DNA of 64,000 nt from Calditrichota bacterium (GCA_008501765.1 QQUE01000006.1:248001-312000); one strand, 5' to 3'; positions 43,757-54,277 are shown, counted from the stretch's first letter. Numbers and translations: made by a program. The notes: a model not told the origin generated them from the sequence alone.

Positions 43757-44902
43757 ATGAGAACCGTGCGGTTTGTTTTGTTCTTTCTTATTTCTATTAC
43801 GGTCCTGGTTGCTTCACAATTAAACCTGCAAGCCCAGCAGGGAAAAAAAGAGCGGCTGCAGTTAAAACATGCCAATCAGGCTGAAAGTTATTTGAAAAAT
43901 AACGAACTCATTCGTAAATTCTATGGCAATGTCATTTTTTCTCAAGGGGAAATGAATTTGCAGTGTGATGAGCTTTTTAGCTTTGAGAAAAAGAACGAAT
44001 ATCTGCTGCGCGGGCATGTAAAAATTCAGGATCCTGATTTTAAACTGGTGGCAGATTCCGCCAGATATTTTGCGGAGAAAAAAGTGTTTCAAGCCTACGG
44101 GGATGTGACTCTCAGTTCCGATGATTCTAAGTTGAATGCACGAACAGTGACCTATTTTCAAACTGAAAAACGGGCGGTGGCTGAGAAAGACGTACAGATA
44201 GATGATAAAAAACAGCGTGTTGAAATAACCGGGCAACGAGCTGAACTGGTGCGGAAGAAAAAGTACACCAAAATAACCGGCGATCCGCTTTTTATCCAGT
44301 ACGATTCCACCGGCCGGGAAGAAATGCGAATTGTCGGCGAAAGTATGGAATCTTTTGATCAGGGTAAACATTTTGAGATTAAGAAAAATGTGAAAATAAC
44401 CCGGGATTCGACGGTTGCCACCTGCGGCTTTGCGTCTTATTTTGCGGATTCGGAAATTATCGAGTTGCAGGAAAATCCCGTGGCCATCAATGCCAGTGAT
44501 AAAATTACCGGCGAAAAAATGCAACTGCAAATGCGCGATAAAAAATTGCAACATATTCTGGTGACGGGTAAATCGAAATTCGTCTCGACTCCGGATTCAT
44601 CAATCCGTGAAGTTGCGAAAGAAAATTATCTGACCGGCCAAAGCATCCAACTTTATTTCGTTGAAAATGAGGTCCGCAAAGTACATGTCAACGGTACGGC
44701 AACCAGTGTTTATCATATTGTCAACGAAGACGGTGTGTATCAGGGACAAAATTGGGCGCAAGGCGATACGATTATAATCTCAATTGCAAAAAAGGCGATA
44801 AATCGAATAAAAATAAAAAGTGAGCCCGGCAACTCTCAAGGCAAATTTTCACCGCCGGAAGGACAAAAAGCGGATAGCAGTACCGTTGGTAAAACTCTAT
44901 GA
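43757..44902 (+). CDS. lptA: LPS transport periplasmic protein LptA/OstA-like, enlarged
   Basis: 381 residues, about twice E. coli LptA. A signal peptide (FVLFFLISITVLVASQLNLQAQ) precedes repeated OstA beta strands: NNELIRKFYGNVIFSQGEMNLQCDE..., HVKIQDPDFKLVADSARYF, AYGDVTLSSDDSKLNARTV, then similar units to residue ~340. It should bridge the periplasm between LptBFGC and LptD. The extra strands could make a longer bridge in one chain. Its stop overlaps lptB (ATGA). Confidence 0.85.
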   Translation: MRTVRFVLFFLISITVLVASQLNLQAQQGKKERLQLKHANQAESYLKNNELIRKFYGNVIFSQGEMNLQCDELFSFEKKNEYLLRGHVKIQDPDFKLVADSARYFAEKKVFQAYGDVTLSSDDSKLNARTVTYFQTEKRAVAEKDVQIDDKKQRVEITGQRAELVRKKKYTKITGDPLFIQYDSTGREEMRIVGESMESFDQGKHFEIKKNVKITRDSTVATCGFASYFADSEIIELQENPVAINASDKITGEKMQLQMRDKKLQHILVTGKSKFVSTPDSSIREVAKENYLTGQSIQLYFVENEVRKVHVNGTATSVYHIVNEDGVYQGQNWAQGDTIIISIAKKAINRIKIKSEPGNSQGKFSPPEGQKADSSTVGKTL

Positions 44903-49425: not shown

Positions 49426-50520
49426 TCAGAATATGATTATTTCTCCCGGAAGCAGACGGGTCGAAAAACGGTATTTTTCAACGCCATTAAAATCAAAACA
49501 AACGACTTCGCCATTGGTGGAGAAATTGCGGGCATTGCTGACAAATATTTCTTGCTGTTCTGCGTCGACAGCAATGGCATAAAGATACGCGGCCGCATCA
49601 ATTTTCGTGGTTGATATAAAGTCCACATTTTCAACGGCCCGGGTTTGCAGTGAAAATTGCACGACGCCATCGTCAGTTAAAACATAGCCTTTGTCCGTGC
49701 CATTAAATGCAAAATCCCGTGGGTGATTGGCGATTTGAATTGTATCGAGTACAGCCTTTTGCAGGGGATCGAAGACGACAATCCCGGAGACTTTTTCGCT
49801 TGCATACGACCCACCGCCGCCAATATAAATCAGCCCATCCGGTCCTTCCTGAATCGAATTGCAATTAAAAATGACTGGAATTCGGGAAATCTCGGTGCTG
49901 TTTTTCGGGTTGATAATGCTTAACGTCCCGGCGTCTTTTTCCGCCCCGCGAATATCGCCGAGCCCGCTGTTGGTCACGAATAATAAATCGTTGAAAATCA
50001 GCGCTCCTTCCGGTGCCGGGCCGACAGGAATCGTTCCCAAAATTTTTTTTGCGCCCAAATTTATGTGGATAATTTCATCGTTATACAGTGAAGTTACAAA
50101 GCCGATGGAATCATCCATCACGGCCATCGTCCGCGGACTTGGATTATTGGGAAGGGCAATTCTCCCCTGGCTGGTGAATGTCGGTAAGTCAATAATTTCA
50201 ATAGTGTTGGAGCCATTCATAACCACGTAAATCAGGTTGCCGGCAACTGTCATGCTGTTTGCTGTATCGCCAAGGCGCAATCCGGGGTTCTGACTTTGAA
50301 AGTAGGAATGCTCGACGGTGTGATCCGATCGGTCGTAATGGGTTATTGTGGCATTATCGCCACCCCAAAGTCCTTCGTTTATAATCAGAATATCATTTTC
50401 GTTCAATGGTTTTTTTGAAGAATCGGGCGCTTGTGGATTATCTGTACAGGCGGAAAGGATGCTAAGAAATATTAAAACTAAAAATTGTACCGCTGCTTTT
50501 TTGATGTGGATATACTTCAT
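49426..50520 (-). CDS. BtuG-like cobalamin-binding beta-propeller lipoprotein
   Basis: 364 residues with a lipobox SILSAC (Cys25). The mature part is a YncE-type seven-bladed beta-propeller. The opening ILIINEGLWGGDNATITHYD and RLGDTANSMTVAGNLIYVV plus NGSNTIEIIDLPT closely follow the DUF5074/BtuG pattern of gut Bacteroidetes, where BtuG is a surface lipoprotein that captures vitamin B12 with very high affinity and hands it to BtuB. Its start overlaps the end of the TonB receptor gene (ATGA). Position downstream of a cobalamin riboswitch supports the function. Other ligands remain possible. Confidence 0.75.
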   Translation of the reverse strand: MKYIHIKKAAVQFLVLIFLSILSACTDNPQAPDSSKKPLNENDILIINEGLWGGDNATITHYDRSDHTVEHSYFQSQNPGLRLGDTANSMTVAGNLIYVVMNGSNTIEIIDLPTFTSQGRIALPNNPSPRTMAVMDDSIGFVTSLYNDEIIHINLGAKKILGTIPVGPAPEGALIFNDLLFVTNSGLGDIRGAEKDAGTLSIINPKNSTEISRIPVIFNCNSIQEGPDGLIYIGGGGSYASEKVSGIVVFDPLQKAVLDTIQIANHPRDFAFNGTDKGYVLTDDGVVQFSLQTRAVENVDFISTTKIDAAAYLYAIAVDAEQQEIFVSNARNFSTNGEVVCFDFNGVEKYRFSTRLLPGEIIIF

Positions 50521-52760
50521 ATTTTTACCTCAATTTCTAATCGCCACATGCGCATTGGCATGGGGTAATTGTGGATTATTTCGTATGATTTGTCAGTGAT
50601 ATTTTCTATTTGTAGATTTATTTGGCCTTGCGCATGCGCAAGCGGAAAAGAATATCCGGTTTTTAAATCCCAGAGCGTATAAGTCGGCATTAAGCTGTCA
50701 AAATCATTTTCCGGCAAACTATAGCGATAGCTGAGATGCCGGACTGCCAGAGTCGCAAATATGTTGTTTCGTGCACGAAACGGCAGCGATGCCGTGGCGA
50801 TCATTGTGGCAATACCCTGAGGAATATAAATCAGGCGTTTGCCAAAAGTCCGGCTGCCGGGCGTTTGGTCTTCAGCCTGCTGTAAAGTGTAGGTGGTTCG
50901 CAAGCGCAGAAGTTCATTCGGGTGCTGCCATTCTCCCTGCCACTCCAGCCCGATCGTGCGTGTTTTACCGATATTTTGTGCACTCCAAACAACGGGCGAG
51001 CGCGGAACGGAAATTATCTGATCGCGTACATTCAAAGCAAAAACAGCGATATCTGCAAACCAGTTTCCCCAGTGATGCACCGTGTAGTTAGCGCCAAAAT
51101 CAACAGAATAACTCGTTTCCGGTTTCAGTTTTTGGGTGCCATAATTGAGATAATATTGTTCGGCAAAAGTGGGCACGCGGAAGTTGTGCGCCGCATGCAT
51201 TCGCAGATGCAATGGCGCGGCAAAGGGTTTCCAATTGATGCCAGTGCTGGGGCTGAGCGCACCGCCGACATCGGAATATTCACTGCGGCGTAATCCAAAT
51301 TGCAGGGCAAGAAAATTTTGATCGGTCTCATTGATGTACTCAAATGTTGTTGCGGCGTGTGTGAATATGCGTTGGACAGAATCGATTAATTTGAAGCTGT
51401 TCGAACCGGGATTTGTGAGATTGTTTCCAGTGAGTTCGCTAAACCCGGTTTCCAATTTGCCAAGCAGGCGGAATTTTCGAGCAGTCCATTCATATTCTGA
51501 TTGATAAAATAACGACCGGGTTTTGTAACGATCATTAATTCCCCCGGGTTTGATTTTTATGAGGGGATCGCGGTAGTGTAGCTCATTGTGCTGCCATCGC
51601 AGTGCTGAATGCAGATTTTTTCCGGGTGAAAAGCGCCATTTTATAATAGCTGTTCCAACCAAATATTTATCTTTTTGACGCGCTTCAGATTCGACAAAAC
51701 TCCCTTGCAGAACCGCATTTGGGATTTCCCGGTCACCGTGGTGATACATAAAGCTCAGCGTGTAATCGCGTTTTTCTCCTTCTTTCTGGAAAGAAGAAAG
51801 AAGATTTAGGTTTTGAAATGCAGCGTTGCTGCGGCGTAAAATTTTATCATCCCCAAAGGCGTTAAATCGATAGCGATGATCTCCCTCTGCCTGACGGAAA
51901 GCGCCTGCAAATGCCGTAGAAATTCCCGCTGGAGCTTTTCCTGTCGCCCGAAATCGGAGGGCGTGTAATCCATATTGTCCACGACTTTCGCTTATTTTCA
52001 AGCTGCGTTGGCCCGAAGCGCCATGCGATTGTAAATTGATAATTCCCGCAAGCGCATTGGCGCCGAACCGGGCGGCATCCCCTCCCCGAAAGATATTGAT
52101 ATTCTGAAAAGCTGTGATATCCAGTGTTGAGAAATCTACGACCCCGCTTTGATAATTATCAAACGCCACACCGTCAATTAGAATTTTTGACTGTGTTGCA
52201 GAGAGGCCGCGCAGTGAAACAGTTTGCAAACCTCCCATTCCACCATAGTTTTTGATGAATATTCCAGGTGCGTATGTCAACACATCCGCGGGGCTGTCGG
52301 CGAGAGTCTCTTCAATTTTCCGGGCTGAAAAACGCGTCACAGCATGGGGTGATTTTTGTGTCAATAAAAGCCGCGGTTCTTTATCAGAAGTGATGGTGAC
52401 ATCCGGCAGCGGCAGCGGCTTTGGGCTTAAAATTATGGAAAACGAGGTGTCATTGGAAATATTAATTGGCCGTTCAACGCTTCGATAGCCCATGCGATAA
52501 AAAATCAGATTTGCAGGAGATGCCTGTGGAAGGGAGATTACAAACTTCCCATTTTTATCAGAATAAAAATAATTTGCAGATTTTTCATCGTCTATGAATA
52601 TAATGACCCGGTCGATCCCGACGCCTGATTCAGCGTCCGTAATTTGGCCGCTGATTTTCAGGTTTTGCGCCAATACACACTGAAATAAGATGCCCGAATT
52701 CACGAAAATAGAGCAGGCAAATGTGGTATAAATCCAGATTTTTTTGATCGCAAAAAACAA
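50517..52760 (-). CDS. TonB-dependent outer-membrane receptor, probable cobalamin importer (BtuB-like)
   Basis: 747 residues. TTG start at 52760 has AAGGAT six nt upstream; signal peptide to about residue 32. An N-terminal carboxypeptidase-regulatory-like beta-sandwich (residues ~33-115, ISGQITDAESGVGIDRV) precedes the plug (about 120-240; ADVLTYAPGIFIKNYGGMGG, TVSLRGLSATQSKILIDGV) and the 22-strand barrel ending in LQIENITDKSYEIIHNYPMP. The upstream cobalamin riboswitch shows the substrate is very likely a corrinoid. BtuCDF and TonB are not nearby. Confidence 0.85.
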   Translation of the reverse strand: MFFAIKKIWIYTTFACSIFVNSGILFQCVLAQNLKISGQITDAESGVGIDRVIIFIDDEKSANYFYSDKNGKFVISLPQASPANLIFYRMGYRSVERPINISNDTSFSIILSPKPLPLPDVTITSDKEPRLLLTQKSPHAVTRFSARKIEETLADSPADVLTYAPGIFIKNYGGMGGLQTVSLRGLSATQSKILIDGVAFDNYQSGVVDFSTLDITAFQNINIFRGGDAARFGANALAGIINLQSHGASGQRSLKISESRGQYGLHALRFRATGKAPAGISTAFAGAFRQAEGDHRYRFNAFGDDKILRRSNAAFQNLNLLSSFQKEGEKRDYTLSFMYHHGDREIPNAVLQGSFVESEARQKDKYLVGTAIIKWRFSPGKNLHSALRWQHNELHYRDPLIKIKPGGINDRYKTRSLFYQSEYEWTARKFRLLGKLETGFSELTGNNLTNPGSNSFKLIDSVQRIFTHAATTFEYINETDQNFLALQFGLRRSEYSDVGGALSPSTGINWKPFAAPLHLRMHAAHNFRVPTFAEQYYLNYGTQKLKPETSYSVDFGANYTVHHWGNWFADIAVFALNVRDQIISVPRSPVVWSAQNIGKTRTIGLEWQGEWQHPNELLRLRTTYTLQQAEDQTPGSRTFGKRLIYIPQGIATMIATASLPFRARNNIFATLAVRHLSYRYSLPENDFDSLMPTYTLWDLKTGYSFPLAHAQGQINLQIENITDKSYEIIHNYPMPMRMWRLEIEVKI

Positions 52761-52987
52761 TTTTTATCCTTGCCGAACGAAGAAGAAAGTTGTGTTTCGC
52801 ACTTGTTGAGCAGTCCCAAAATAGAAAATGCAAAAAATTGGCTACTGGCAACTAAAACACGAAGTTCTGATTGGATCGCTGATAAAAAAAGGAGATTTCA
52901 GGGAGGAAAACGAAGATGGAAAATTCGATCAAAGAAGCTACAGGAATGCTGACGCTTGCCCTCCCTCGAAGGCCTCGATAGCGAAAA

Positions 52988-53153
52988 TTTACAGGCAGGT
53001 TTCCTGACTCACAGCGGAATTGACAATGGCCTTCCCATTTCGCATGCGGCAAAACAGTGGCGCAAAGTCTCCATTTGCTGTTTACAGTTGCGGGGCAGTT
53101 GCCGTTTTTCACGGCATTCCCTTTTAATCTATTTTGATATAGACACCTGTAAA
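52988..53153 (-). ncRNA. Cobalamin (B12) riboswitch aptamer
   Basis: Read on the minus strand, the canonical parts appear in order: P1 5' arm TTTACAGG (53153-53146), GGGAATGCCGTG, ACTGCCCCGCAACTGTAAAC (the L3/P4 core), GCGCCACTG (the GCCACTG block), GGGAAGGCC, then the B12 box AGTCAGGAAACCTGCC and the P1 3' arm CCTGTAAA (52995-52988). P1 pairs perfectly over 8 bp. The element starts a few bases after a minus-strand promoter and lies upstream of the TonB receptor gene, as expected for repression by adenosylcobalamin. Confidence 0.95.
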
Positions 53154-53162
53154 GCTTGGCGA

Positions 53163-53190
53163 AATATAAAAACAATTTATGAAATTGCAA
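53163..53190 (-). promoter_or_regulatory. Promoter of the riboswitch-btuB-btuG operon
   Basis: On the minus strand TTGCAA (53190-53185), 16 bp, TATATT (53168-53163). Transcription would start near 53156, just before the aptamer P1 stem at 53153. The exact fit between promoter and aptamer start supports both calls. Confidence 0.6.
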
Positions 53191-53317: not shown

Positions 53318-54277
53318 ATGAGACACTTTATACTTTTCCTGCTTGTTTTCTTTTTCGTCGGAAACGCTTCGGTTTGTCAGGCGCAAGATGAACAGAATAA
53401 GAATAAAAGGAGCAAACGCGAAAAACTGTCTGATACCTACAAAGACGACAGGAAAAACGTTAAAAAGGAAAAAAGGAGCAAACGCCGAAAACTTTCTGAT
53501 ACCAATAAAGACGACAGGAAAAAAGTAAAAAAGAAAAAAAGGAGCAAACGCCGAAAACTGTCTGATACCAATAAAGACGACAGAAAAAACAATAAAAAGT
53601 CAAAAAAAGGCAAACTTGGAAAATTGCCTGATACCCATAATGACAACAGGATAATCAATGACAGCGATGATGGATGGTGGATTGAACTGTTTCTCGATCC
53701 GGAAATGATTGTGCATGCTGTTTCTGATACGCGTCCCGGCCCATATCCCTACAACGGAGTGGCCGCAAATTTTTCTCCGGCCGATCCCTATCCTGGGGGC
53801 ATTTTGCAATTCCAATCCAGCTATTTTCGCCATGATGCGAACCTGTTCGGCTTGTTGTGGCGGATTAATTATTATTATCAGCGATTCGGTGTGGATGTCG
53901 ATTTAATTAATTTAATTGAGGATCTGGGCAAAGAGAATGATTACATGAATTTGTCCGGCTGGCGCGTTTCGTGGGATTTTATCGGCCAGGCTGACTTTCG
54001 GTTTGGCGGGCAGCTGGGTTTGCGAAATTTATCTTATGGGGGTGTAAGCAACACCGGACCGGAAATTGGCTTTCGTCTTGTTGGTCTGCCTGAAAAACCA
54101 TTTATATTTGAGAGCGCTGGAACTATTGCACGAATCAATGGAAATCAATTTTCCACGTTGAGCGGAACACTTGGCCTGATGATAAAACGGGTGCATTTGT
54201 TCATCGGCGGACAGATTATCCGTTCATCGGATATATCTATCGATGGGTTGAAAATTGGATTTAGACTTTGGTTGTAA
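53318..54277 (+). CDS. Exported protein with four basic 22-residue repeats and a beta-rich C-terminal domain
   Basis: 319 residues from ATG 53318 (MRHFILFLLVFFFVGNASVCQAQ signal peptide, cleavage after AQA-like VCQAQ); the frame extends 32 codons upstream without signal-like sequence. Residues ~30-115 hold four repeats of 22 residues (KRSKRRKLSDTNKDDRK type), strongly basic. The rest (from ~125) is beta-rich and Gly/aromatic-rich (WRVSWDFIGQADFRFGGQLGL) and ends in FRLWL with a terminal aromatic/Leu, fitting a small outer-membrane barrel or surface protein. Not recognised as a known family. Confidence 0.6.
   Translation: MRHFILFLLVFFFVGNASVCQAQDEQNKNKRSKREKLSDTYKDDRKNVKKEKRSKRRKLSDTNKDDRKKVKKKKRSKRRKLSDTNKDDRKNNKKSKKGKLGKLPDTHNDNRIINDSDDGWWIELFLDPEMIVHAVSDTRPGPYPYNGVAANFSPADPYPGGILQFQSSYFRHDANLFGLLWRINYYYQRFGVDVDLINLIEDLGKENDYMNLSGWRVSWDFIGQADFRFGGQLGLRNLSYGGVSNTGPEIGFRLVGLPEKPFIFESAGTIARINGNQFSTLSGTLGLMIKRVHLFIGGQIIRSSDISIDGLKIGFRLWL
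53405..53668 (+). repeat. Four tandem 66-bp repeats
   Basis: Units begin at 53405, 53471 and 53537 with the shared AAAAGGAGCAAACGC and a fourth, degenerate unit about 53603; GATACC recurs at 66-bp steps (53564 and 53630, and earlier). The period is a multiple of three, so frame is kept. Adjacent units 2 and 3 are nearly identical in DNA, pointing to recent duplication and possible copy-number variation. Confidence 0.85.

Follow-up and report, generated by a model that had tools for sequence, protein, structure and literature searches.

BtuG was reported in Bacteroidetes only, from 313 gut genomes (Wexler et al. 2018, PMC6143338), a restriction restated in PMC12751083, and competition within the crowded gut was offered as the explanation (PMC6143338). 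The 64,000-nucleotide stretch of DNA analysed here (the window) carries a locus that an initial annotation described, from the sequence alone, as a cobalamin riboswitch followed by the genes of a BtuB-like receptor and a BtuG-like lipoprotein, with the remark that such a pair outside Bacteroidetes would have to be older or more mobile than assumed. The locus thus raises the questions of whether its two proteins belong to the BtuBG type, whether the organism lies outside Bacteroidetes, and how the gene pair came to be there. The coordinates of the features discussed are listed in Table 1.

Table 1. Features of the B12 locus of the window and of related proteins encoded in other KSB1 loci
Feature	Position	Strand	Basis
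Promoter-like TTGCAA-16-TATATT	53163..53190	-	9/12 matches; weak
Cobalamin riboswitch aptamer RF00174	52977..53165	-	cmscan, 112.5 bits, E 2.2e-27
Leader, aptamer to btuB start	52761..52976	-	No clear expression platform found
btuB, TonB-dependent B12 receptor	50517..52760	-	Pfam domains, best PDB match BtuB1, tree
TonB-box-like PDVTITS, BtuB residues 119-125, ahead of plug	52386..52406	-	Putative; sequence reading, position from alignment
Trp592 of BtuB	50985..50987	-	W/F/Y alignment column; may be the EL8 aromatic, mapping uncertain
btuG, lipoprotein, seven-bladed propeller, 364 aa	49426..50520	-	Sequence and predicted fold
Lipobox cysteine Cys25 of BtuG, LSA-C	50446..50448	-	Invariant in 26 aligned BtuG proteins
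NEGLWGGDNAT loop, BtuG residues 48-58	50347..50379	-	Aligned with BtuG2 loop Asn54-Thr64
~630-aa riboswitch-linked secreted proteins	L144-L150, L152-L157, L159, L160, L162, L163 (KSB1 loci)		
Double-BtuG-like protein	L035:9046-11433, L036:9120-11262, L037:9091-11544		

A cobalamin riboswitch precedes the btuB and btuG genes

The full cobalamin aptamer proposed by the initial annotation was confirmed by the Infernal search, which matched the RF00174 model over its whole length (1-189 of 189) with a score far above the gathering value of 31.5. This match is the sole one in the window and in the whole 5.9-Mb genome, and riboswitches also lie upstream of the btuBG genes in three related loci of the candidate division KSB1 (L035-L037). 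The promoter claimed ahead of the aptamer fared less well: both hexamers are present, and the pattern by itself is no better than chance, since shuffled sequences yield about as many such matches (1.4 ± 1.2, vs 3 in the region); its location, where the aptamer begins, is suggestive. In the leader, no terminator-like site was found on the btuB strand, the fold of aptamer plus leader has a z-score of -0.25, and an AGGGAGG/CCUCCCU helix precedes a U run that does not directly adjoin it.

The receptor gene, which overlaps btuG by ATGA as had been annotated, encodes a protein of 747 amino acids (TTG start) comprising an N-terminal carboxypeptidase-regulatory-like domain (CarbopepD_reg_2) and the Plug and TonB_dep_Rec domains of Pfam. 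In agreement with its description as a BtuB-like TonB receptor, its best match among the solved structures is BtuB1 of Bacteroides thetaiotaomicron (E 3e-41), followed by BtuB2, BtuB3 and the Escherichia coli BtuB, while the equivalog model TIGR01779 gives it 127 bits, far under the cut-off of 599.7. Similarly to the E. coli BtuB, with which the plug region matches, it is by these criteria a TonB-dependent B12 receptor; unlike the E. coli protein, it has a BtuG partner. An aromatic residue of EL8 in BtuB1, BtuB2 and BtuB3 of B. thetaiotaomicron is thought to dislodge B12 from BtuG (PMC10404256). Trp592 of the window BtuB falls in a W/F/Y column of the alignment with these three proteins and may be its counterpart, an uncertain mapping since the published loop-tip numbering did not fit the chain.

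Sequence and predicted fold identify the lipoprotein as a BtuG

The btuG reading frame carries a DUF5074 domain (Pfam), and its product has BtuG1 (8blw_B) as top PDB match (E 4e-25, phmmer), followed by BtuG2 and BtuG3; the 12 best PDB chains are all BtuG or BtuG-like, and 1l0q follows at 1.7e-9. Because the window protein scores higher with BtuG1 (91.6 bits) than BtuG1 does with its own paralogue BtuG3 (only 47.7 bits), it lies well inside the spread of the accepted BtuGs. The AlphaFold model, calculated with 26 window and locus sequences, has a pLDDT of 92.6, and BtuG entries take the first eleven places among its structural matches (Z 37.7-40.0), with other propellers from 33.8 down; Foldseek agrees (1e-21 or better for the BtuG entries, vs 1e-15). 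BtuG2 and BtuG3 (BT1954 and BT2095) are, like the window protein, single-domain seven-bladed propeller lipoproteins (Z 38-40), whose clamp loop aligns with that of the window in spite of an identity of 20-22%. The motif singled out by the initial annotation, INEGLWGGDNAT, occupies residues 47-58 and corresponds to the loop with which BtuG2 is reported to grip B12 'like a pair of pliers' (PMC10404256).

One may object that DUF5074 is a broad family, so that the propeller could be a generic YncE/DUF5074 surface protein that sits beside a B12 receptor and binds no B12. We consider this very unlikely, for the following reasons. First, the top sequence and structure matches are all BtuG, with YncE, 1l0q and lactonase-like propellers clearly behind. 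Second, the B12-clamp loop is conserved. Third, operon and riboswitch are arranged as in Bacteroidota. By sequence and predicted fold, the lipoprotein is thus a BtuG, with a putative role in B12 capture, as the initial annotation had supposed.

Trp194 and Trp272 of BtuG2 cannot be conserved in the window protein, since Trp52 is its only tryptophan; the aligned propeller segment of BtuG1 has no tryptophan either. As regards a surface export signal (LES), the lipobox cysteine is followed by TDNPQAPD, with one early acidic residue, and the rules for such signals come from Bacteroidetes only (PMC6143338). Such distant BtuG proteins could be useful for finding the residues behind the extreme affinity.

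The locus belongs to a KSB1 genome

Two MAGs in the GTDB family of the window genome, G003 and G005, bear the name 'candidate division KSB1 bacterium'; their BtuG proteins are identical to those of L036 and L037. The NCBI taxonomy places the name KSB1 under Ca. Zhuqueibacterota, in the FCB group. From this family membership and this placement, the window genome belongs to KSB1 and not to Bacteroidota, which answers the question that the initial annotation had raised and disposes of an ordinary Bacteroidetes genome. In a search of genome contigs, 'bacterium isolate Dive96_bin3.88' was nearest (58%), followed at 49 and 47% by two MAGs called 'candidate division KSB1 bacterium', which share the BtuG proteins of G003 and G005; beyond these came Ignavibacteriaceae (33%), Chlorobiota, Melioribacteraceae and Kapaibacterium, and then Bacteroidia (about 25-31%). 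A close BtuG was found in four of the 82 KSB1 genomes, all within the family of the window.

A further phylum seemed to be indicated by a Desulfobulbaceae BtuG record (L063, MAG CROMO_A_116), which we dropped because its contig is colinear over 17 kb, with 86% identity, with an Ignavibacteriae contig (L062); it is almost surely misbinned. This case shows that misbinning of such a kind happens, and the btuBG locus of the window could likewise be a Bacteroidota fragment that strayed into a KSB1 MAG. That is extremely improbable, in view of the position of the locus about 300 kb inside its contig (C11), of the CYTH gene, the LTD gene and the divergent upstream gene that the window shares with L035, and of the occurrence of the btuBG pair in four MAGs from two genera. 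As the BtuG locus lies in a KSB1 genome, a BtuG assigned on sequence and modelled fold is present outside Bacteroidota, to which publications had confined it. Our literature search found no paper linking BtuG with KSB1 or Ignavibacteria.

Proposed B12 uptake pathway

Similarly to the window, the B. thetaiotaomicron BtuB1-BtuG1 system (BtuGH, 8blw), which supplies the best sequence matches for both window proteins, combines a riboswitch with adjoining genes for a TonB receptor and a propeller lipoprotein. It differs by its phylum, by an identity of only about 27%, by the BtuH domain fused to BtuG1, which the window BtuG lacks, and by its BtuFCD transporter, of which no homologues were found in the window genome.

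We propose that the locus is very probably a functional B12 uptake locus of the BtuBG type in a KSB1 bacterium. Under B12 shortage the riboswitch, as the RF00174 match suggests, would permit the production of BtuB and BtuG from one transcript. The lipid-anchored BtuG, presumably at the cell surface, would use its NEGLxxxxNAT loop and its central cavity to capture corrinoids; placed over BtuB like a lid, it would pass the ligand to the receptor upon closing, and TonB-driven transport would then move B12 into the periplasm. This lid and transport mechanism is transferred from B. thetaiotaomicron; in the window it is known through sequence, predicted fold and gene order. An ECF transporter would probably take over at the inner membrane, a step that we suspect because no homologues of BtuC (FecCD) and BtuF (Peripla_BP_2) were found in the window genome, which is 98.9% complete. 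This genome has one CbiQ/EcfT and two ECF S-components, both sub-threshold, and in two other KSB1 genomes (L156 and L170) the B12 loci contain ECF S-component genes or have them next to them. No CbiC homologue was found in the window genome at the same completeness, and the B12-binding domain PF02310 gave nine hits, seven of them over the cut-off, including a protein of MetH size and proteins of mutase size. The organism probably scavenges B12 and uses an ECF transporter for the inner-membrane step; a genome of 98.9% completeness could hide a gene.

Riboswitch-linked proteins with a type IX tail in the wider KSB1

The window locus is a known system in an unexpected phylum; the newer part is a type IX-tailed protein of other KSB1. 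RF00174 is present in 71 of the 82 KSB1 genomes, and 28 of them encode a full-length protein of ~630 amino acids, a count from which the many matches consisting of the type IX tail only were excluded. In 26 of these 28 genomes a cobalamin riboswitch lies on the same strand, 2.3-3.4 kb ahead of the gene start; the 17 such loci that were fully read all have a BtuB-like receptor gene between the two. The protein has a signal peptide followed by a distant relative of the BtuG propeller, to which a BtuH-like domain and a type IX sorting tail are joined. Weak propeller hits of ~640 amino acids elsewhere in KSB1 had first the appearance of NosZ-like noise, a reading that was rejected on finding them downstream of riboswitches.

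In the family of the window, the BtuH-like domain of L035-L037 is encoded by a separate first gene with a type IX tail of its own (that of L036 being known only through a match at G003). The model of this domain from L035 (pLDDT 74) is closest in fold to BtuH2 (7biz, Z 13.3); the BtuG1 H domain (8blw_B) comes next with Z 12.6, and the first unrelated structure follows at Z 9.4. A PDB search with the BtuH-like protein as single sequence gave no match, and a profile search found 7biz and 8blw_B weakly (E 0.003 and 0.038). What distinguishes the KSB1 domain from BtuH and BtuGH is the type IX sorting tail, and its position either behind a propeller or in a gene of its own. Directly after btuG, L035-L037 also encode a protein of 714-817 amino acids with two BtuG-like stretches. 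The two are BtuG-like N-terminal halves, apparently placed after stretches that resemble C-terminal halves, with a type IX tail where the protein is complete; a circular permutation is possible. The window has, as L035 does, the CYTH and LTD genes on the downstream side and the divergent gene on the upstream side, and differs from L035 in lacking both the first gene and the double-propeller gene; the BtuH-like domain is absent from the window. In the Ignavibacteria/Kapabacteria loci L043, L044 and L062, a BtuH-like gene lies just upstream of btuG; btuB was not recognised in the retrieved flanks of L043 and L044.

Since it joins a propeller to a BtuH-like domain, the ~630-aa protein resembles the B. 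thetaiotaomicron BtuGH with another anchor, and we regard it as a predicted analogue of BtuGH, so far unreported, and as a candidate capture protein. No paper joining BtuB, type IX secretion and a cobalamin riboswitch was found in our literature search. We lean towards the view that KSB1 bacteria widely capture B12 at their surface by this undescribed riboswitch-linked family, which would be anchored through a type IX tail and not through a lipid, and that the family of the window replaced or supplemented it with a BtuB-BtuG lid of Bacteroidota type, to which three relatives added the double-BtuG-like protein. If so, two-site B12 capture would be a strategy of the whole FCB group and not a gut adaptation. 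Together, the btuBG pair in KSB1 and the riboswitch-linked propeller/BtuH-like proteins encoded by one in three KSB1 genomes suggest that surface capture of B12 is not limited to the gut, and it seems that the anchor of related capture domains differs, being a lipid in some and a type IX tail in others.

Origin of the btuBG pair

In the BtuB tree, the family of the window forms one clade, which groups with Bacteroidota/Ignavibacteriota BtuBs (99), apart from the other KSB1 BtuBs. The BtuG tree agrees, and both put the family beside the Ignavibacteriota/Kapaibacterium entries. In the concatenated tree, a long branch with 100% SH-aLRT separates the pair of this family from the other KSB1 pairs. 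From the Bacteroidota type of the pair and its restriction to one family, we favour, as the probable course of events suggested by the sequences, the transfer of btuBG of Bacteroidota/Ignavibacteriota type, both genes together, into one KSB1 family.

Alternatively, BtuBG could be an ancient FCB trait, kept in the family of the window and lost or replaced in the remaining KSB1. The branches of the trees are long, and a tree in which the family is sister to all Bacteroidota pairs, outside their single clade, was not rejected (p 0.18-0.19) with the concatenated set without the E. coli BtuB. An AU rejection (p 0.0003) was obtained in one set that also included the E. coli BtuB and L042/L062/L063; these sequences may drive it, and we do not take it as proof of transfer because the former set does not repeat it. 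The propeller plus BtuH-like protein of other KSB1 is also compatible with retention, as both systems could stem from an old B12-capture repertoire. Against retention speak the small number of carriers (4/82, one family), the strongly supported branch and the neighbours of the family in the two single-protein trees, which make this explanation a possible but rather unlikely one. Of the two readings offered by the initial annotation, mobility is therefore favoured, and the older origin also stands.

Other genes of the window

Upstream of the riboswitch, the divergent gene (53318-54277, + strand; MRHFILF...) contains 66-nt tandem repeats that encode basic KRSKRRKLSDTNKDDRK-like units. No Pfam family was found for it, and similar divergent genes occupy the same place in L035-L037. 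At 43757-44902 (+ strand), a protein of 381 amino acids matches both the LptC and the LptA models and is possibly an LptC-LptA fusion.
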